Below are positions 86 through 20,374 of a stretch of DNA of 21,695 nt, piece by piece. The position numbers and the translations under genes were made by a program. The first letter of the stretch is position 1, and every line of letters begins with the position of its first letter. Source of the stretch: Lunasporangiospora selenospora (lineage: Eukaryota > Mortierellomycota > Mortierellomycetes > Mortierellales > Mortierellaceae); contig JAABOA010000169.1 in assembly GCA_015680635.1 (NCBI GenBank), forward strand, positions 1 to 21,695, given 5' to 3'. A model generated the notes under the pieces. It worked only from the letters and a program-made list of their open reading frames with translations, was not told the DNA's origin and did no database searches.

Positions 86-1454
86 CTCCGCCATGGAATA
101 GGGCAGTGGCGCGCTCGGCCTTTAAAAATGAACTTTTGGGGAATACTTCTGTCAAGTCATCCAGCATCCCCAAGAGGTTTTCCAAACGGTACGAGTGAGT
201 TATGCCAACCCGACAGAGCATGAAGGCCGTCATAATGTTGAGTGGAAGATCGCGGACCATCGTTACTGCCTAGTCAATTCAGATTTCAAGCAAAACAGTG
301 AATGCTGGGAAGGTTTTTTTCTTTCGAGTCTATACATGGAGATGAGTGACGGAGGATTATGTCTGGGCCACATACCGCACTGAAGGATGGTATACAAGAA
401 GCAAGATCCAGCCATGCACTCCAGTTGAATGGATACTGGTTCACAGATTCAACCAACACTCCTGCCGCCAGACCCATTTTCTGTCTCTTGATTAACACTA
501 CCCCATAGCTGTGAAAACAAAGAGTGCGTCAATTTCATGCAGCTCTAAAGAAGACTCGTCAAGAGATAAGTCTGTCTTGACGTACAGGTACTTGCAGAAA
601 GAGTCCAAAGTCCCTGCAAAGTATTCCATTGATAGTTCGGCCTCAATACTGTCAAGCTCCTTGTTCACCGTCGAGCTATAATCGCGAGACTCTACATATA
701 TTTTGTGGATTAAAAGATCGAGTAAGCTCTCCTGAATTGAAGGAAGTAGATTATATGTCAAGGATGCCACAAGACTTTTCGGCTTACCAAACACTAATCT
801 CGCATCTAGCCGACGTTCTCTCTCACCCGTCTATTAAACATACTTTTCGATTAAACGAGGGTATAGTCTGGACGAGGCACAAGAGTGCAGGTTGACTATA
901 AAGACGGGAACTATGGTAGACTTACAAGGTATTTGGAGAAGAGTCGGAGGAACATCGACTTGTCGCTTGCGCACCGATCAAGGGTAGCGGATGCTCTGTC
1001 AAACTCTCCTCTTCTAAAAAATGACATTGCCCTGCTGTATACGTCTACTTCTTTTGCGAATGTTGAATGTGGATGATAGTGTTGGTCGAGCTGGAGATTG
1101 GCAGACCACTTAGTCTCTCCCGATGCTGTAGTTGCCCTGCCCACGGCAGCATCCTTTGTATTCGCAGAAGAGAGACTATTCAATGCCTCGGATGCCCTAC
1201 AACGAAATATAAAAGGCGTCAGGGATGGCATTTACCCCGGGCTTAGTAGGCATTCATATCTGAACCCCCCCCCCCCTTCCTCCATTCTTCCACCATACCT
1301 AACCTGTGGGTTAGCTATTCAAGTGTACGTCTTACCACAGTGAAGAAACGTCAAGACCGCGTTCGCTACAAGCATTTATCGCCTCCCTCAACGCCAATCT
1401 TATTTCCCCGATGGGTATGGACTGGATCAATGCTTTCCACGCTGCATTGTTCAT
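86..1454 (-). CDS. CDC23: Cdc23/APC8, anaphase-promoting complex TPR subunit (5' part, cut by window edge)
   Basis: Cdc23/APC8 is a scaffold subunit of the anaphase-promoting complex, the nuclear ubiquitin ligase that degrades securin and mitotic cyclins. Five exons read in frame: 1454-1336, 1196-926, 830-586, 508-376 and 269-86, giving about 317 residues. ATG 1454 is the start because an in-frame TGA lies just upstream. Family landmarks in order: CSERGL...WASEALNSL near residues 33-50, LFSKYL before residue 130, FCKYLYGVVLIKRQKMG around residue 210, the TPR segment SVNQYPFNWSAWLDLAS, then LPLNIMTAF and FPKSSFLKAERATALFH. The four complete introns are 139, 95, 77 and 106 nt with good GT-AG ends. 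The last exon ends at a probable GC donor (AG/GCAAGT at 87-80); its acceptor and the rest of the TPR region lie left of the window. The gene lies tail-to-head behind the MPP alpha gene on the same strand. Identity is from conserved motifs recalled for the family; exon ends are inferred. Confidence 0.92.
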
Positions 1455-4336: not shown

Positions 4337-6199
4337 ATGGTACATTGGATTGTCTCCTTTCCTCTGCTAAATATGCTCTCCTTTCATGAGCCGTACATCT
4401 TTATCAGGGACTGACTCTCACTACCATTATTGTCAATAATATAGCTCATGAGGATGGCATCTGGAGTGTCTCATGGTCTTCTAAGAATGATATCGTGACT
4501 GGCTCAGTCGACAATACAGTCAAAGTGTGGTATGTATTAGGCACCTCAATCCATCCAGAGCTACGCCTCTCAGTCATTATTGCCAACTATGAGTTCTGCC
4601 TAATCATTTTTTGATGCAAGTCGCGCGGAACAACTGAAAACCTCAAAACTAAAACTGGAGCCGACACGCTGACCGTGCACAATTAGGAACGCAGAGAACG
4701 GAGAACTAAAGGGAACGCTGACAGGACATCATCTTGGTGTCAACTCTGTTGATACCAGCTCTGATGGAAAACGTAATGGCCAAACGCCTCTTAATATATT
4801 TTATTTTCCCAATTCACATTGGCTTGTCAGTGGGACGACAATGAACTATGAATACTCATGAGAGCTATTGTATTTGAACTGTACTAGTTGCCGTGTCCAC
4901 ATCTCTGGATAGTCAGATCAGGGTTTGGGATCTTGAGCAGCTCAAACAACACAAGGTTATTGATGCTGGGTCAGGTAGTAGACGATACTGCAAACTTTTT
5001 ACTGGTTAACGCGCACAAACCGTTCGTATCAACAAATTGACGATCGTCTCTCTTTACTCTCCTGGATTCGACATTTAGTTCAAGCATGGACCGCCAAATT
5101 CTCACCGGATTCTAAGCATATCGTGACGGGATCATCATCGGGTGACGTCAACCAATACGAGGTTGAGACTGGAACAAAAGTGCAGTCGTTTGAAGGCCGC
5201 GGGAAGTTTTCTATGTGTGTCGCCTATGTATGTGTCGTCTCCCCCTCAGCACTATTCGATGAACTTGCTCAAGGGTCTTGTTTCTTATGCACTGGAGAAT
5301 TGCCTTTGACTCTTCTTTACTACATTTTTCTTGGCCTCAGAGTCCAAATGGAGAATATGTTGCCTGCGGAACAGAGGCTTCAACAGACTCGGCAACTGTT
5401 CTTTTGTTCGATGTTGCTACAGGCAAACTCCGCTCAACCTTCAAGGGTAATGAACCACAACATCATTTTTTTTCCTTCCATTGGAGAGCACCTCTTTCCC
5501 AATCACATACGATATTCGTCTTGGATTGACTGACCCGGTTTCATTGCTCGTCCTAGGCCACGCGATGGCTGTTAGATCACTCGCTTTCTCAGCCGATTCT
5601 ACAAAACTTGTCACCGGCTCAGATGATAAGCGCATCATGATTCACGACGCGTAAGGACTAAGCAAAGGCCCCCACCAATGTTCGCCGTTATAGTGTCATA
5701 TCTTTGATTCTAACATTGAAATACCATGTTTTTCTGTCTCTGAAAGTGTCCACGGAGACACGATTCGCACACTCTCAGGGCATGCAGCATGGGTTATGAG
5801 CGTAGCCGTCAGCAGTGATGGAGTTCACGTTGCCAGTGGGTAAGTTTAGTTGCATGGATACCCGGATGCTGGACGTTGGTGGACGTTGGTGGACGCTACA
5901 CAGTTTCTCATACTTTTTGATGCGGCCGAACTTGTGATTAGATCTAGCGACAGCAAGGTCAAGCTCTGGGATCTAGTTGCAGACCAGTGCATTGACACAA
6001 TGGATGGACACAGCGATCAGGTAATTGTCAACTGCTACAGAGTCCAACATCTTTCAGTACATCTACGCGAGCATGCTTTCTCACTATCTGTTGAATGATA
6101 TGTTAGGTCTGGGGTTTAGCCTGGAACGGGCAAGGCAACAAGTTTGTGTCTGTATCGGACGACAAGGCTATGAGGGTGTACTCCACCACCTCTGCATGA
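4337..6199 (+). CDS. SKI8: Ski8/WDR61 WD40-repeat protein
   Basis: WD40 scaffold of the cytoplasmic Ski complex, which feeds mRNA to the exosome; its animal orthologue also sits in the Paf1 transcription complex. Ten exons: 4337-4339, 4408-4529, 4687-4772, 4888-4974, 5079-5227, 5341-5446, 5557-5650, 5747-5839, 5942-6020, 6107-6199. They total 912 nt, a 303-residue protein, matching the about 305 residues of WDR61. The blades show typical ends: GSVDNTVKVW, SLDSQIRVWDL, GDVNQYEVETG, TVLLFDVATGKL, GSDDKRIMIHDA, SSDSKVKLWDL and SDDKAMRVY. Family phrases include AHEDGIWSVSW near the start, VQAWTAKFSPDSK, GRGKFSMCVAYSPNG, GHAMAVRSLAFS and the C-terminal VWGLAWNGQGNKFVSVSDD. All nine introns follow GT-AG and every junction keeps frame. 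The first exon appears to be only the ATG, since an in-frame TGA precedes exon 2 and no ATG lies between; another upstream exon remains possible. Intron 8 holds a short ggacgttggt repeat at 5871-5895. Confidence 0.95.
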
Positions 6200-7818
6200 T
6201 TTTGCTTACCAATGTAGCTGATGATTACACGACAGCATTTCCGGAGCCCTCGTGTGATGAAGTATGCCTGCAGCGACAAGCCTTGGGAACTTTGAAATTT
6301 CACATAATCTAGCTTCACATTGTGTAGGGGCGGAGCTCAATGGCAAACAAGATGTAAAGCCTTGCTTGCTTCGCCCAAGATAAAGGGACTGGATTCTGTT
6401 CCACTCTTGACTCTTTTTATTACTGCAGAGCACGCGTCGTCGGGAGGACCGCGAGACACTTGATTTGATTTCGATAGAATAGTTTTCTTCTTTCCTATGA
6501 CCAGTGACGAAGGTGAAGGGAATAACGAGGAAGGTTACAAATAAGGAGGCGACAAGAGCGCAGGAGTGAGAGCAGGAGAGGAGAAGGAGGAGGGGGAGGA
6601 GGTGAAAGGAGGGAGGATGAGCGGGAACAGGAGCAGGAGCATGGCATAGACATAGACGCAACAAGAAAAAAGGAGACAAAGAAAGGAGCAAGTGTCCATC
6701 TTTGGTGGCGAAGGCTATTTCAACGAACCAACAATCAAATGAGCCGTAGAAATCCGAATAACATCTAAAGCCGGACAATAGGCGGGGGAGAGAGGGGCAC
6801 AGTCCTGCCTATGCGATAGTAATTCATTGCACATCATCATTGGTGGACTGTGTCTATCTTTATTAGGTTGACCTGTCATCCCGCCACCTTATTACCCACA
6901 GAACTGTTTCTACTGTCTGATTTCTTGTTTGCTCGATGGGAGGAGACAAGAACAGGAAGAGAGGATGAAAGAGTGAGAAATCGGGGCACGATAAGGAGAA
7001 TCCAAAGAATTCGGCCGGTGCCCGAGAGCGAAGACCGGTTAGTCTCGCACTTACACTTGACTTTCTGTGGCTGCCTTCTTGAATGAACCGCCTGGTTTGC
7101 ATCTTCGGCCATTGGTATTGTGAGCTGGAGGCTGAGTCCTTGCGTGGGGAGGAGCCATGGTTATTGTTGGCCTGGAACCTGTTCAGGCACAGCGATCAAA
7201 GCACAGTGGAGTCGAGCACGGCGTCATCCATTCCAGAACCAGGGCCGAATTCTCTTCATCTACTCGCTCGCTCTATCTCTCGCTCCTTTCTCATTTTCCC
7301 GCTCCCTCTCTTTTTTGTCGTCTTGTACCTCTAACCAAGGACTCGATTTGACGTCTCCATCTCCCACTTTTTACATCAACTCCCGTACATCTAAACCCGA
7401 TTCAACCAACCTGCGTCCATTCTATCTTACAACAATTCCCTAATAGTCTCACCTTAACAACTGAACCGCGATCAAAGTGACTGTTCCTTCCTCGGCCACC
7501 AGAGATCAGCAAATCCTCCACCTTACACCTCCACTCTGCTGAACAAACCAACCAACCAGCTTGACAGTACTGAGGATGTGAACAGGATCGGCTTACTTCA
7601 TTTTCAACTTCGTGCTACCCACCTCTTATTGTTTTGCTATCCACTTTGACCCAACGACCAATCGACCTTTCCATCGCCATTTTGTAATATAACTTTCTTC
7701 CGTCCTAAACAACGACGAAGTCCGACCCTTGGTGATACTGGATTTACCAAACACAAGATTAACGAGTCGTCACTCTATTCACCACTTGTAATCTGGAATA
7801 AGCATTTTATCCCCTGCT
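6200..7818. other. Intergenic region and probable 5' leader of the membrane-protein gene
   Basis: A polypurine tract (about 6540-6640, G/A on the plus strand) lies downstream of SKI8. From about 7240 the sequence becomes pyrimidine-rich (TCT/CTC runs, 7255-7325) and C/A-rich up to the ATG at 7819, typical of a fungal 5' leader. Open frames in the stretch (for example the minus-strand frame 6206-6778) are low-complexity translations of the purine tract and are not supported. Confidence 0.5.
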
Positions 7819-10800
7819 ATGGGAACTCTCCCAGCGGTGGTGCTCAAGGCGTCGCTCTGGACTCAAGCTGTAAATCTCATACAATTGCCGCAGAGACTGT
7901 CAAGCATGTGCGCCTGAACTGTGAGCTCTTTTGAGGAAATGCCGCTAACTATTCACCGGATTTGTTGATAGGCACTGCTGCTGGTTTTGACCTCGATTTT
8001 GGCGGACACAGATGCCTGGATCGGCACTATTCTGACTACAGCCGGTCTGTGCTTTGTGATCATTGGGATACTCGCTGCATACATGCAAAGGTTTGGATAT
8101 TTGTATATTGTATGTAACCTAAAAGTGCTCTTCTAAGACAATAGTCTCTTGTTTTTTGGTCATCGCGGAGGATAAAACAGTGACTAACCAAAACTACTAC
8201 CATTACTCCATCAAGTATGCCACGCTCGTTGGGATATGGGAGATATCAGCCCTGGCGCACATTTTATTGATCTGTGGGTTGGCGTCTCTACCACCAGCGG
8301 TTGTGGACGTCACCAACCTTGTTGGAAACAGAGTATCTTCGGATCCGTCCGACCCCCTCAGGATTGTATTACCACTGCTCTACGGGATCCAATGGATATT
8401 TTGGTGCATTTCGCTAATTAGCCTGATTAGCTTACGACCGGAAGCTCTTGACCCAACTCATGGATTTGACATTCAGGAATCCTCGCGTGAATATACACGG
8501 TTAGCAGCAGCAACACCGTATCACTCCCAATATCGCCACCATTGCTCGAAGGGCAGAAACACCACTGTGATAAATATACCACACGGGAGAGGCCCGCCAT
8601 CTACAACCCTACAGTTTGAAGATAGCTCAGGAGAAGATGATAAAGTGTCCTCCACAACAAATATGAAGGGTAAAGCACCCGCCGACCATCAATATTTTAC
8701 CAACAATACATCCGGGATGCGGCCTGAATGGCCTAATTCAGGAACCATCGTAATCCCAAAAGACCCTCGTATATCTCAAGTGTTAGTAAGACTCAATCAT
8801 TCAGGCAGCAGGGCGACGCCAATCCATCGTCTAGAAAACCCCCATCCATATGCCCAGGATGCAACATATTTACCTGGTATGACAAATCCAGTCAACCAAC
8901 AGCACCGCCCCATTCAACAACATAATCAGCCAGCTATTTTCAAAGAGGGTCTGGACGAGGTTACCGTAACACCAGCAGATATCCAGTCTCTTCAGGGACC
9001 TTCAAACCGTCATCCAGAGCCTAAACAACCCAGCAATCATGCACACTTTGTCCTGAATGTACCTAGTCAGGGCGAATCACTCTCAGAAATGATACTCAAA
9101 GTGAGTGAACCTGGCCAAACGCCACTAATGCACAATCCCACCTCAACGGCGCGACCCGTCCACAACACTTCGACACTTAACGATGAAGCGCTGACTTCAA
9201 ACGCCAGGAATACCAGAAATGGAGCGCCGTCACTTCCAACAGACACACCAAATCCTGCGCGCGTCAAGAGTACAGCAACAAAGGCTTCACTTACATTGTC
9301 TTCAGACTCTTCGTTATCAGGACTGTCGGCGATCTCAAACGAATCCAGCTTTGAGTGCGATGAGGCTGAACATACAGTCACCTCTGCTGAAAATACAAGC
9401 TTCAGCACAAACCAAAAAGCTCAGCGTCGGAACTTTGGAGTGTCTCCCCTTGCAATATTGTCCGAGCCAGAAATCGAACATTATGAGGCATTTATGCCGC
9501 AAACGGAACCCCATGAGCCCAGTTATATATTCCAACGCCCTAATGAAGTCACTCGGTCTAGGAGAGAGGCTATGACACAAGCTCCACTTTGGAAAACTAA
9601 TACGAAAAACAGGAGCGATGATGTTCAGGAGCTAGCCCCCAAGAGTGTTTTATCTAGCATGGGGGAAACCATGAGCAGCGAAGTTAACAGCATGAGCGAA
9701 CCTTGCCCGAGAATCCAGCCCAATTCGTCTTACCTTGGCCAAGCTATCCCAGCATCGACCACAGCATCGACTATGAGTGTCAATAGTCGTGCGCTACAAG
9801 ATCCGGAGGAGGCGGCGATTGCCTTTACAATGGAAACGAATGAACCCTCACATCCCCCGGCCACGATATCTATTCAGTACCTAACTATAACTCCATCGAC
9901 TTCTCCAGTGACCAGTACTCCAAATTCTTCAGCTGCAAAATCAGGGTCAGAGCTGACATCAACTCTAGACACCCCTGCATCAGTAGCATATACACCAACT
10001 GCATCCACATTCACTGCATCTACTGCACCGTTTCCTACACCTGCATTATCAACACCAATTCCAACACCAGTTCCTCCCCCATTTTACGGACGCACACCTG
10101 TGATCGCTCACCTACAGCAGATAGGGGCATTTGATGCCTTCCCAGAACGGTCATATACCCCGGCGAGCTCCAGTACCAACCGTGCGTCACATAGACATGA
10201 CTCTAAACCCAACTTCAACCCACCATCTCCACTACAGGCGTACCACCAACGGCTAGAGAACGACCCTTATATATCTCATCGAATGAAGGGGTCGTTCAGA
10301 GTGATGTCTCCCAGCAACACTTCAGCTCCCTTTGAGTTTCCTCTATCGCCTACAGCTACTACAGCTGCGCCTGCCCCTACCTCATTCTCGACATCAACAA
10401 GCCCACTACCACTAGTATCTCTACCTACGCCTTCAGTGCAAGTAACGGAACCCGAAGATGACCCTCTTCCATTGGCCATTACTGATAACAGACAAGAAAC
10501 AAACATTCCAATGATTGTTATCCATCCAGATCCAGATGACCAAAAAGAAGGCGAGTCACCACGAGTACTTTCAAATGAGGATATTGAGTATCTGTCGATG
10601 ATGCCTCCGCCTCCATTGAGGCTACTCGAACAGCCTTGGGACGACTCTTTTGAAGATGAAGAGTATATGGATGACATTGAAGAAGAGTATAGTGATGAAG
10701 ACCATGAGCACAGAATTGTGCGTAGTAGGAGCGTTTATGACATCGAGGAGGAAGATACGGACAGAGAAGAGAGTGACGATGACCAGACCATGTTAGTCTC

Positions 10801-10837
10801 AATGGAGATAGATGATCAACATCGGGGTATAGAGTAG
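7819..10837 (+). CDS. Four-helix membrane protein with long disordered Ser/Thr/Pro tail (unknown function)
   Basis: I do not recognise a family. Exon 1 (7819-7869) and exon 2 (from 7972) encode two hydrophobic helices (from about residue 4 and residue 32). The large third exon begins with two more (around GIWEISALAHILLICGLASL and the stretch ending WIFWCISLISLISL) and then runs about 800 residues of low-complexity Ser/Thr/Pro/Asn-rich sequence. The C-terminus is strongly acidic (EDEEYMDDIEEEYSDEDHEH and EEEDTDREESDDDQ). Length is about 950 residues. Intron 1 (7870-7971, GTAAAT...GATAG) is clear. Intron 2 is ambiguous: donor 8110 (GTATGT) with acceptor ending 8170, or donor 8114 with acceptor ending 8180. 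Both keep frame and give 951 or 949 residues. Four N-terminal helices plus a long soluble tail suggest a plasma-membrane or endomembrane protein with a cytoplasmic regulatory tail; this is inference only. An AATAAA at 11268-11273 may end the transcript. Confidence 0.83.
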
Positions 10838-14563: not shown

Positions 14564-14830
14564 ATGCACAAGTCCATCCTCTTCCTTGCCGCCATTGTCC
14601 TCGGCTCCGCTGCTGTCCAAGCTGAATCTGGTTCCTGGTGCTACAGCCCCAAGAACGAGAAGTTCTGGGGTCAGGCCTCCGCCGAGTGCTGTCGCCCTGC
14701 TGGCGGCAGCATGGGGGGCGACCGCCGCTGCTACGGCCTTAATGGAGACTTGGGCAAGTGCCGTGCCTTTTACGCCTGCTGCATTGACACCTGGGGGAGC
14801 GGTAACCACTACGATAATGCCTGCTACTAA
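14564..14830 (+). CDS. Small secreted cysteine-rich protein (88 aa)
   Basis: A complete single-exon coding sequence of 88 residues. Residues 1-20 form a classic signal peptide (Lys at position 3, hydrophobic core ILFLAAIVLG, AVQA cleavage site), so the product is exported. The mature 68 residues contain eight cysteines at 26, 42, 43, 56, 66, 72, 73 and 87, including two CC pairs, enough for four disulfides. Aromatic and glycine residues are frequent (KFWGQAS, CYGLNGDLGKC, FYACC). The layout resembles small secreted proteins seen across fungi with an N-terminal WCYS motif and CC pairs; I cannot assign a named family or activity. Codons are strongly C-ending, unlike the surrounding AT-rich DNA, and with the TATA box and leader intron this suggests high expression. 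A defence, effector or cell-wall role is speculation. Confidence 0.9.
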   Translation: MHKSILFLAAIVLGSAAVQAESGSWCYSPKNEKFWGQASAECCRPAGGSMGGDRRCYGLNGDLGKCRAFYACCIDTWGSGNHYDNACY

Positions 14831-17749: not shown

Positions 17750-18777
17750 CTATTGTCTCATGAGGTTGCTCCTTCATCCTTTGTACCGAAATTACAACGA
17801 GCTTTTCCTTATTTGCGTACCTATAGCATACATTCATGAATCTCAGTGTAAGGTACGTACACTAATTGACACGCGGCTCTTTTTGCACAAAAATAGTTCC
17901 CAATGTGGAAGACGGTATTTGTATTGAAAGGTTAGAGGCTGATAGGTTTCCTTGATGGAATCTTGCCCATCCTTTTGAACATTAAAAGATATTTCCTACC
18001 TGATTAACTCTAGCTAGGAAGTGTTGGCTTTAGTCGTGGTGGGTTGTTCAAATTAGACGAAGCTCGTGCCTTTACATCGGTGTTCTCTATTATTTTGATT
18101 ACGAACTTTCTCCACTAACAATCATATAAGCAAGACTAAAACAAATAACTAAGATATCAATGACCGTCGCTGTGCAGCAGTAGTACTCCACTGCTGTCGC
18201 AGCTAGCGTAACAGAAGTCCCGCAATACAATTGTCGTTTTTTTAGTGGATTGCGGCCTATCCTCCATCACTTCCAAATGTCGATGGCCTGCCGGGCTATT
18301 CGGTAAGATATTCCCCCCCCCCCATGGCATTGCAAAGTAATTGCCCGTTCCATGGCTAGGGGATACGATCGTTGGTACGTGCGCCCTTTCTCCATACTAT
18401 CTTACCCAGGCGTCCTTAATAATAAGAATATTTGCCCCTCCTCCATCGTCCCTTAGCTCCGCATCCGCCCCCTTGCATACACCAATATTAAGGGCATAAA
18501 AGGGGAGAGAGAGTAGATAAAGTTAAGGAGATATAGGAAGGAAATATAGGAAGGAAAGAAAGTAAGGGGTTAAAGAAGGGGTCCATCGCGAAAGAGAAGA
18601 TGGCATCATCCATGAGTGACATTATGCCTCTGTTCAAATCCATTTTACATTTATACCCTCTTTATCCTCTTTCTATCTTCTAAAAAAGTTCACAGCTCCA
18701 ACTTCTAACACACCCCACAGCTCCAACTCCCCATAAACTTTCACAGACCCAACTACCCATACGCTTTCTCAGCAACG
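17750..18777. other. Gap, then promoter-like region of the putative micro-exon gene
   Basis: 17.75-18.45 kb shows nothing assignable apart from a C11 run at 18313-18323. From 18494 there is a TATA-like GCATAAAAGG and a purine-rich stretch with repeated ATATAGGAAGGA (about 18530-18553). The sequence then becomes C/A/T-rich (18640-18777), with CACAGCTCCAACT repeated at about 18691 and 18715, the composition of a fungal 5' leader. An ATG at 18600 could start an upstream exon. Confidence 0.45.
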
Positions 18778-19835
18778 ATTGCGTCTACTGTTCGATCGGC
18801 CACCTTCCTTTTGATTGCCCTGGCTATGGTCACTTCTACAGCTCATGCAGCTCCAATGTAAAAGCTCTTTTATGGCCCTTGCACACGACACAGGGCACCA
18901 TCCGCTTCATCTTTATTTAGTGGCACGTACTGGGCATAGTCCAGCTTGACGCCTGATTTCTCACGATATTTGCCCTGTAATTTTGTATTCACTTTCTCTT
19001 CTCGCCTTCACACTCCTTCTGTCCATGGCCAATAGCCCGTAAGAGAATGCTCTCTATCATAAATGCGATGAACCATGCATCCTCCAATGTCCATGATTAC
19101 TCACTGCATCCACCTTTTGTTCTTCAACTTTTCGTCTCAACACTCCTTTTGCTCGTGACCGATAGCTTGTAAGAACATGATCTCTATCATAAATGCCATG
19201 AACTGGGTCTCCTCTATTGTCCATGATTACTCACTGGCATCCGCCTTTTATTCTTCTACTTTTCGTCTTCACATCCCTTTTGCTCATGACAAATAGCAGG
19301 TATGAACATTTCTCTGACAGAGACACCATGTACTGTGTCTCCATCATTGCCCATGATTACTCACAGTACCCACCTTTCTCTCTTCTACTTTTCATTTCCA
19401 CACTCCTTTTGCTCATGACCGATAGCATATAAGAACATGATCTCTGTCATAAATGCCATGAACTGTGTCTCCACCATTATCCATGGTTACTCACTGCATC
19501 CACCATTTTTTCTTCTATTTTTTGTCATCACATCCCTTTTGCTCATAACCGGTAGCCGGTAAGAACATGATCTCTATCATAAATGGCATGAACTATATCC
19601 CTCCATTGTCGATGATTACTCACAGCCTCTGTCTTTACTTTTGTACTTTTCGTCTTCACACTCTTTTTATCTATGACCAATAGCCCATAAGAACAACTTA
19701 TTTGTACGATATGCCACGCATGGTGTCCCTTCCATCTTTGCGTATGGTTACTTACAGCTTGCGCCCTTTACTTTTCTACTTTTCGCCATCGCCGTACTAT
19801 CGTGCATGACCAATAGCGATCAAGAATATTTTTAA
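18778..19835 (+). CDS. Putative micro-exon gene for a tiny secreted peptide (or its decayed remains)
   Basis: The first exon, 18778-18857, encodes a convincing signal peptide (basic start, core ATFLLIALAMV, TSTAHA cleavage site, then AP) and ends at a GTAAAA donor in phase 2. Unspliced, it meets TAA at once. Intron-like units follow: 18858-18920, 18927-19035, 19039-19165, 19169-19296, 19300-19425, 19429-19555, 19559-19683 and 19687-19816. The exons between them are one of 6 nt (TGGCAC) and then 3 nt each (CCC, CTT, CAG, CAT, CCG, CCC), all keeping phase 2. After the last TAG (19816) the frame reads D-Q-E-Y-F-stop (TAA at 19833-19835). Units beginning at 19429 and 19687 have AT in place of GT, so splicing would skip them. 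Using only good donors, the tail after the signal peptide is APIGTPFSRDQEYF. The expected ATG is ATT. A pseudogene or a chance repeat is possible; no transcript evidence is available. Confidence 0.4.
18927..19816 (+). repeat. Tandem array of about 130-bp intron-like units (six clear copies plus one diverged)
   Basis: The ATAG/GTAG boundaries recur at 19035, 19165, 19296, 19425, 19555, 19683 and 19816, a period of 128-133 bp. Shared blocks in order: GTAAGAACATGATCTCT, CATAAATGCCATGAACT, GTCCATGATTACTCAC, a pyrimidine-rich half with CTTCTACTTTTCGTCTTCAC, and CCTTTTGCTCATGACCGATAG. The first (18927-19035) and last (19687-19816) units are the most diverged, as expected of an old array with internal homogenisation. 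The period is not a multiple of three and stops occur in all frames, so the units themselves are not protein-coding. Confidence 0.9.
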
Positions 19836-20101
19836 TGCCGGATTGACATTGTTGAGGTGTATCCATTTGGCCCGTCTGTTCAAGATTGAGAAATATCGCT
19901 GTCGTCCCACTTGGCTTGCGCCCGCAAACTCAGCATTTTTGTTATCCTGTTTTCATTAAAAATACTGATGCTATTACTGTGTATTACAGATATCAATGAA
20001 ATGCAGTTGACACTTTGGAGATTGTGTATTGATTAAAGCAAAGTAAGAGAGGAAAAAAAGGACGCCAGTCTTATTTGCACAAAGCTCTTGGCATTGACTC
20101 T

Positions 20102-20374
20102 GCAGGACCAAGACGACAAAGGAAGTCTTGAGCCCATCATCCGAGTCGGCAACCCCTACACTGTGTAATCTCCCTTTCTTGAATTCCACCCACGTACTAC
20201 GGAAAATAAAGAAAATCTACCTAGATAACCCTCTCATGGCTGACTCTGGACCTACATCTTTCTTTTACGAGCATTGCGACGACGCAAGAATAAAAGGGAG
20301 GAGAGATCGGGCAGTAAAGGGGGTCGCTGGCTCGGATAATGGACTCAAGACTTTCTTTGTCGTCTTAGTACTGC
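20102..20374. repeat. Imperfect inverted repeat, arms of about 90 bp
   Basis: The left arm (about 20102-20190) and right arm (about 20374-20285, reverse complement) share GCAG, then AAGACGACAAAG, AGTCTTGAG and ATCCGAG with scattered, mostly transitional, differences. Similarity fades toward the centre, and the spacer is about 95 bp. In the left arm, GACCAAGACGACAAAGG after an acceptor-like CTCTGCAG reads DQDDKGSLEPIIRVGNPYTV and stops at 20168. The right arm reads DDKESLESIIRASDP in the same frame but has a TAA at its start. The arms may be copies of a terminal exon placed head to head, or ends of a small element. A transcript through both would fold into a long hairpin. Confidence 0.7.

Follow-up and report, generated by a model that had tools for sequence, protein, structure and literature searches.

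A putative family of secreted-peptide genes in Lunasporangiospora selenospora with tandem introns separated by single-codon micro-exons

The closest described counterparts of the locus reported here are the MEG genes of schistosomes and the bicycle genes of aphids. According to an excerpt of their description, MEG genes encode secreted or membrane-anchored proteins, place about 80% of their coding sequence in small, symmetric exons of 6-36 bp, and vary through alternative splicing (PMC5825161), while bicycle genes are characterized, again in excerpt, as fast-evolving putative effectors with about 17 exons on average, among them many unusually small internal exons that are almost all of phase 2 (PMC9168663). 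The fungal family that we describe here would by analogy work like both of these, standing apart in exon size, in its apparent tandem-intron origin, and in organism. It resembles MEG genes in having a signal peptide (six hydrophobic N-terminal exons, recognized by eye), and in that the coding region of its most complete copy, on contig C337, consists mostly of symmetric micro-exons, with 31 three-nucleotide exons in a predicted reading of 57 codons; unlike the 6-36 bp exons of MEG genes, its exons measure 3 nt, a single codon, at 113 of 115 junctions with GT and AG, its host is a fungus, its introns are tandem copies of one unit, and a word-based search with the short C337 peptide gave no homologue. 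With bicycle genes it shares small exons, here of 3, 6 or 9 nt, behind phase-2 first exons. Bicycle gene exons are longer than 3 nt. Their host is an insect and the excerpted description of them includes no tandem-intron array, whereas the present family is fungal and built on tandem introns.

The SP7-like effectors of arbuscular mycorrhizal fungi, which are secreted proteins of Mucoromycota, likewise combine a signal peptide with a repeat region; going by the published description alone, in the part available, the family is set apart from them, their repeats being coding, preceded by a conserved intron, with a conserved island, and 6-11 in number, and no SP7-like genes having been found in Mortierellomycotina (PMC11333574). 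Isolated exons of 1 and 3 nt are on record, with 1-nt exons in Arabidopsis (APC11) and, with read support, in Fusarium (CYP621A) (PMC4674806, PMC12940212), and an isolated tiny exon likewise in homothorax of Drosophila (PMC7392893); in the available parts of these accounts the spliceosome does include such tiny exons, a fungus being among the examples, but as single ones in ordinary genes, whereas dozens would stand in a row in C337 and C22. Multiplication of introns from a template is described, in the excerpts available, for introner-like elements and for intron gain by tandem duplication (PMC4457414, PMC4974935); in our reading the present family differs in that intron and codon multiply together within one array. 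A gene of this class was not found in full-text searches of an open library, most subscription papers being outside its scope.

The window, i.e., the whole stretch of 21,695 nucleotides that was analyzed (contig C142 of the assembly), contains a tandem array at 18994-19695 with a period of 130 bp, 5.4 copies and 76% matches as determined by TRF, and the features assigned to the locus are collected in Table 1. When acceptors and donors were scored independently of each other and exons were allowed any length from 0 to 15 nt, seven junctions emerged in the window, at a unit spacing of 128-133. The original prediction, made from the letters of this stretch, described a signal-peptide exon with a phase-2 donor directly ahead of intron-like units that are separated by three bases, always beginning with C, and a frame closing five codons after the last unit. 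All of these parts are found at the locus, the six spacers and the following last exon (CGA...) being C-initial throughout, but the first codon reads ACG and two donors read ATAAG. Its statement that every unit starts like a 5' splice site thus holds for four of the six internal donors, which carry GT, and fails for those at 19429 and 19687. The three units singled out as free of internal AG (19039-19165, 19169-19296 and 19429-19555) do contain AG only within the first seven bases and at the end, although the third is one of the two that begin with ATAAG and lacks GT.

Table 1. Features assigned to the micro-exon locus in the window
Feature	Position	Strand	Details
Exon 1, signal peptide (by eye)	18775..18857	+	83 nt: TIASTVRSATFLLIALAMVTSTAHAAP + 2 nt, phase 2; donor GTAAAAG
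Intron 1	18858..19035	+	178 nt, GTAAAAG...CAATAG
Micro-exon CCC	19036..19038	+	junction scoring
Intron unit	19039..19165	+	127 nt, GTAAGAGA...CGATAG
Micro-exon CTT	19166..19168	+	junction scoring
Intron unit	19169..19296	+	128 nt, GTAAGAAC...AAATAG
Micro-exon CAG	19297..19299	+	junction scoring
Intron unit with internal AGs	19300..19425	+	126 nt, GTATGAAC...CGATAG
Micro-exon CAT	19426..19428	+	junction scoring; ATAAG downstream
Intron unit without GT	19429..19555	+	127 nt, ATAAGAAC...CGGTAG
Micro-exon CCG	19556..19558	+	junction scoring
Intron unit	19559..19683	+	125 nt, GTAAGAAC...CAATAG
Micro-exon CCC	19684..19686	+	junction scoring; ATAAG downstream
Intron unit without GT	19687..19816	+	130 nt, ATAAGAAC...CAATAG
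Last exon	19817..19835	+	C, GAT CAA GAA TAT TTT TAA = DQEYF, stop
Conserved 3' flank, presumed 3' UTR	19836..20110	+	BLAST: C411, C121, C228, C149

The length of exon 1 is common to the window, C411, C202 and C361, and C411 has ATG at the place where the window has ACG. The peptide end DQEYF with its stop is identical in C411, and a related end, DYECF and stop, occurs in C121; by eye and in comparison with C425, the start of the last exon in the window resembles a decayed unit start. The 3' flank was also recognized by eye in C22, C337, C361 and C425. Leaving out any micro-exon of the window keeps the frame, and the CAT micro-exon would probably be skipped because the donor downstream of it is ATAAG. 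With ACG in place of ATG and two ATAAG donors, this copy probably represents a relic or else a weak gene. ACG is seen at the start position in both the window and C91, and immediately upstream of the ATG in C337; near-cognate initiation or repeated loss are both possible.

Family loci were gathered from the assembly (8,218,449 bases, 475 contigs) by a pattern search and by DNA searches in which the array, its 3' flank and units of C22 and C337 served as queries. Besides the window, 14 contigs carry related sequence (C22, C411, C149, C91, C121, C228, C105, C337, C352, C90, C361, C425, C202 and C96). A signal-peptide exon, identified by a hydrophobic N-terminus with exon ends set by eye, is present at six of the 15 loci (window, C411, C91, C337, C202 and C361), and in all six its length is 2 mod 3 (phase 2) and a GT donor follows. 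At the other nine no such exon was seen in flanks read by eye, so that the repeat without a signal-peptide exon in front, which the original prediction had named as an observation that would count against it, seems to occur at part of the loci. Among these nine, the C425 locus starts at the contig edge, C105 seems by eye to have lost the exon through a deletion between two TACGATTG copies when compared with C91, C228 has the 3' flank alone in the part examined, and C149, C352, C90 and C96 carry decayed fragments. C22 holds the longest array, with 57 spacers and one 268-nt interval containing an insertion, and the 5' side of this array adjoins unrelated sequence with a TATA-like motif. BLAST with the signal-peptide exon found C411 as the sole match besides the query, and with the C91 region C105 as the sole match. 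Across the signal-peptide exons (23-27 codons; C361, whose exon contains a run of C, left out) dN/dS is at most 0.51 in eight of ten pairs, the two others being window-C411 with 0.98 and C91-C337 with 0.89.

These comparisons bear on the explanation that we lean towards for the window itself, namely that it is a dead member of the family: formerly a coding micro-exon gene, it would have been deprived of its start codon and of two donors and would by now be drifting like any tandem repeat, while the family may be real elsewhere. Besides the ACG start and the ATAAG at 19429 and 19687, the dN/dS of 0.98 against C411 and the decayed fragments at four other loci are in keeping with this; set against it, the frame closes with any combination of micro-exons, the remaining splice signals are good, and the presence of ACG in C91 and just before the C337 ATG leaves near-cognate initiation possible. 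The pseudogene alternative offered with the original prediction comes close for the window copy, which looks degraded. For the family, the reading as signal peptide, tandem introns and micro-exons draws support from the related loci, from their conserved splice dinucleotides and from the rapid change of the first two codon positions in the micro-exons.

The pattern GTAAG-N100..130-AG-NNN-GTAAG-N100..130-AG-NNN-GTAAG has 65 matches in the assembly, as compared to one for the reversed pattern, although matches within one array are related by descent and not independent; 38 lie in C22, 16 in C337 and 11 in C105, and there is none in the window because its donors are variant. The same pattern with spacers of 4, 6 or 2 nt gave no matches (reversed controls 3, 1 and 2), nor did the same architecture with introns of 70-100 nt (reversed control 3), while a first intron of 130-160 followed by one of 100-130 gave two, in C22 and C411. 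Chaining over eight loci yielded 134 junctions, and after 13 with a donor score of 3 or less had been left out the exon length is 3 nt in 119 of the remaining 121, 6 in one and 9 in one; once another six are omitted because the donor is not GT or the acceptor not AG, 115 junctions with both dinucleotides are left at the eight loci, 113 of them with 3 nt, one with 6 and one with 9. The sole 6-nt exon here lies within the C22 insertion. Loci found later are outside the 134, and of the 16 junctions listed for these, 13 have 3 nt and one has 6 nt, the remaining two (8 and 16 nt) lying 650 and 1741 nt from the next junction. Also outside the counts are junctions added by hand for their AG-NNN-GT form, four in C337 and, in C105, four for the joined reading and three for the alignment. 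The score matrices were trained on AG-NNN-GTAAG junctions from the same arrays. Given that a tandem array inherits its spacing, the fixed 3-nt length alone is weak evidence for exons; intron lengths fall into all mod-3 classes in C22, C337 and C105.

With respect to the splice signals, GT follows all 111 curated spacers (57/57 in C22, 31/31 in C337 and 23/23 in C105) and AG precedes 109 of the 111 (57/57, 30/31 and 22/23, respectively); the only intervals whose length could conceal a unit without signals are one each in C22 (268, the insertion), C337 (244) and C105 (202). The units are pyrimidine-rich and strand-asymmetric. A second conserved block lies about 60 nt before the acceptor, near TGATTACTCACA, in the units of C22, C337, C105 and the window, and we take this block to resemble a branch site (YTNAY) followed by a pyrimidine-rich stretch. 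Eight introns were inferred in a nearby WD-repeat gene by joining its exons into an open frame, with lengths of 86-157 nt and GTAA, GTAT or GTAG donors, and we count this similarity in length and donors in favor of the family being spliced.

C337 is the most complete copy, having a signal-peptide exon with ATG, 31 three-nucleotide spacers and the last exon TAACTTTTAA. Joined as exons, its spacers give MAPSLRSLIILLATLVMFASAANICCCYIYAPGDYISCYFDRCPDGFIEQPAKRCNF followed by a stop, a predicted secreted precursor of 57 aa that is open through to the stop, with about 35 residues after the signal peptide and 6 Cys. The donors after all 31 spacers are GT and 30 of the 31 acceptors AG; the remaining one is TAA, where use of an AG lying nine bases further upstream would yield an in-frame 12-nt exon. 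The predicted reading of C105 includes ..CCNSGGGCNLDHNECPKDYFYSPPS.., and that of C22 is rich in Pro, Gly and Arg across its 57 spacers. Reciprocal unit pairs between C337 and C105 number three of 22, with no common order, and since the units are not collinear the resemblance between the two predicted peptides is weak. The C337 peptide had no homologue in a word-based protein search, for which it is a short query, and no Pfam match; Cys content is not significant (P = 0.079), and in a comparison of codon usage in the three phases phase 2 is not favored, phase 1 being higher in C22, C337 and C105.

We place most weight on the rates of change within the unit, for which the alignments were restricted to units of 115-145 nt (55 of 57 in C22, 29 of 31 in C337 and 22 of 23 in C105; values below follow this order). 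The GT and AG columns have mean conservation ranks of 5.5, 4.5 and 5.5 of 133-136 (p ≤ 2e-5 against random columns), a result that is partly circular because units were delimited by splice signals, and exon nucleotides 2 and 3 occupy variability ranks 124-136 of 133-136 (p = 0.007, 0.0006 and 0.0005). Changes were counted on unit trees built without the tested columns, pairing each intron with its downstream exon. Nucleotides 2 and 3 require 20.3 and 15.5, 13.0 and 14.4, and 10.9 and 12.7 changes, against held-out intron column means of 5.20, 5.50 and 4.24, i.e., 2.4-3.9 times as many, a factor that is approximate, given that unit trees can be disturbed by gene conversion and that neutrality does not hold for every intron column. 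The rate of nucleotide 2 is reached by 0/126, 1/129 and 1/129 intron columns and that of nucleotide 3 by none, and no adjacent pair of intron columns reaches the sum of both (0/125, 0/128 and 0/128). Transversions alone agree (nucleotides 2 and 3: 13.1 and 11.4, 7.7 and 9.4, 5.5 and 6.9; intron means 2.01, 1.91 and 1.69), so that CpG decay does not account for the excess. When the upstream exon is used instead the excess is smaller, with 4 of 127 intron columns reaching nucleotide 2 in C22 and 1 of 130 reaching nucleotide 2 or 3 in C337 and C105. Nucleotide 1 is slower (8.0, 8.3 and 5.0 changes, or 1.2-1.5 times the intron mean), although the C337 array shows considerable variability at this nucleotide too (entropy rank 114-125 of 136). 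In phase 2, the first two positions of a codon fall on exon nucleotides 2 and 3, and its wobble position on nucleotide 1. The fast change at nucleotides 2 and 3 fits diversifying selection on the encoded residues, whereas a splicing preference for C directly after AG may be an alternative cause of the slow nucleotide 1.

The architecture, the pattern of conservation and the site-specific rates are features of the DNA; from them we infer transcription, splicing, translation and secretion, as well as a function, for the family, perhaps that of a fast-evolving secreted peptide with an antimicrobial or recognition role. We consider it quite probable that the loci form a family of secreted-peptide genes whose one-codon micro-exons are spliced and translated, an assessment that covers the family and not the activity of the window copy. 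The first exon would encode the signal peptide and end in phase 2, the remaining coding region would be a chain of 3-nt phase-2 exons between spliceosomal introns of about 127 nt, and a short last exon would supply the stop. Splicing of the array would presumably be sequential, because an acceptor and a donor 3 nt apart could hardly both be bound at once. A skipped micro-exon would cost one residue, and a retained intron would bring a stop at the next codon; an unused donor is indeed followed by such a stop in 31/31 cases in C337, 23/23 in C105, 57/57 in C22 and for 5/6 donors in the window, as had been predicted, within a codon or two, for most units, and this follows almost entirely from phase 2 and GTAA. 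Duplication or loss of a tandem unit, comprising an intron plus 3 nt, would let the array grow or shrink by one residue at a time with the frame kept, and the codons of the micro-exons would diversify under selection. C337 would be a near-intact example with its 31 micro-exons, the window copy a short and partly broken one.

It is unlikely, though worth keeping in mind, that splicing is real and the micro-exons irrelevant, the array being mostly removed as one large intron or skipped, so that the product is the signal peptide plus the last exon. Including many consecutive 3-nt exons would presumably be hard, and skipping is always in frame with spacers of 3, 6 or 9 nt; what such a scenario does not predict is that exon nucleotides 2 and 3 change faster than the introns while GT and AG are kept. 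Very improbable in our view is a satellite without coding function, or a series of binding sites for a protein in which a fixed 3-nt spacer separates two conserved half-sites. Conserved blocks do flank the spacer on both sides, the rates could in part result from a variable spacer between such half-sites, and nine of 15 loci show no signal-peptide exon by eye, but neither the six signal-peptide exons with a phase-2 donor and a common 3' end nor the pyrimidine-rich, strand-asymmetric units are then well accounted for, and the spacer outpaces any or nearly any intron column, with nucleotide 1 slower than nucleotides 2 and 3. Rfam searches returned no match in the window at 18700-20100 at E up to 1, and none at gathering cut-offs in L018 (C22, part of which reads N), L060, L061 and the window. 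For the unit alignments of C22, C337 and C105 the RNAalifold value is 0.00 throughout, a test without power since shuffled controls are also near 0. Likewise very improbable is a host gene for intron-encoded small RNAs with incidental exons. Tens of tandem introns do resemble SNHG14 (29 and 48 snoRNA introns in the excerpted account, PMC11608373), but these searches gave no Rfam match and the fast exon change would be left unexplained.

Beyond the secreted-peptide family reading as such, we tentatively raise a more far-reaching version, which we regard as somewhat doubtful. This would be a gene combinatorial codon by codon, a generator of protein diversity built from tandem introns, in which introns that multiply themselves carry along the dozens of one-codon exons that spell out a secreted peptide; duplication would add residues, skipping would create up to 2^n in-frame variants, retention would generate a ladder of truncated peptides, and positive selection would act on each codon separately. 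Selection on single codons is measurable here because the flanking introns provide an internal yardstick.

If confirmed, the family would stand at an extreme among the ways in which proteins are built and diversified, with a coding region assembled from single-codon exons through tandem duplication of introns. It would show on many exons at once how small an exon can be, and offer a natural system for the sequential splicing of dozens of adjacent sites. Since gene prediction can hardly be expected to recognize exons of 3 nt, some secreted fungal peptides would then likely have escaped it.

Among the neighbors of the array in the window, an 88-aa ORF at 14564-14830 (+), which by eye starts like a signal peptide and contains 8 Cys, has no Pfam match and looks like an ordinary small secreted protein gene. 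An 893-aa ORF at 8156-10837 (+) is rich in Ser, Thr and Pro, likewise has no Pfam match, and is probably joined to an upstream exon. The WD-repeat type gene with its eight inferred introns of 86-157 nt lies at 4441-6200 (+) and is presumably SKI8-like, and an ORF at 911-1231 (-) matches ANAPC8/Cdc23 (E 3.5e-13). An ORF for the mitochondrial processing peptidase alpha subunit, which places the host in the Mortierellaceae, shows 75-77% identity to its best matches, which come from Mortierella, Linnemannia, Dissophora and similar genera of that family.
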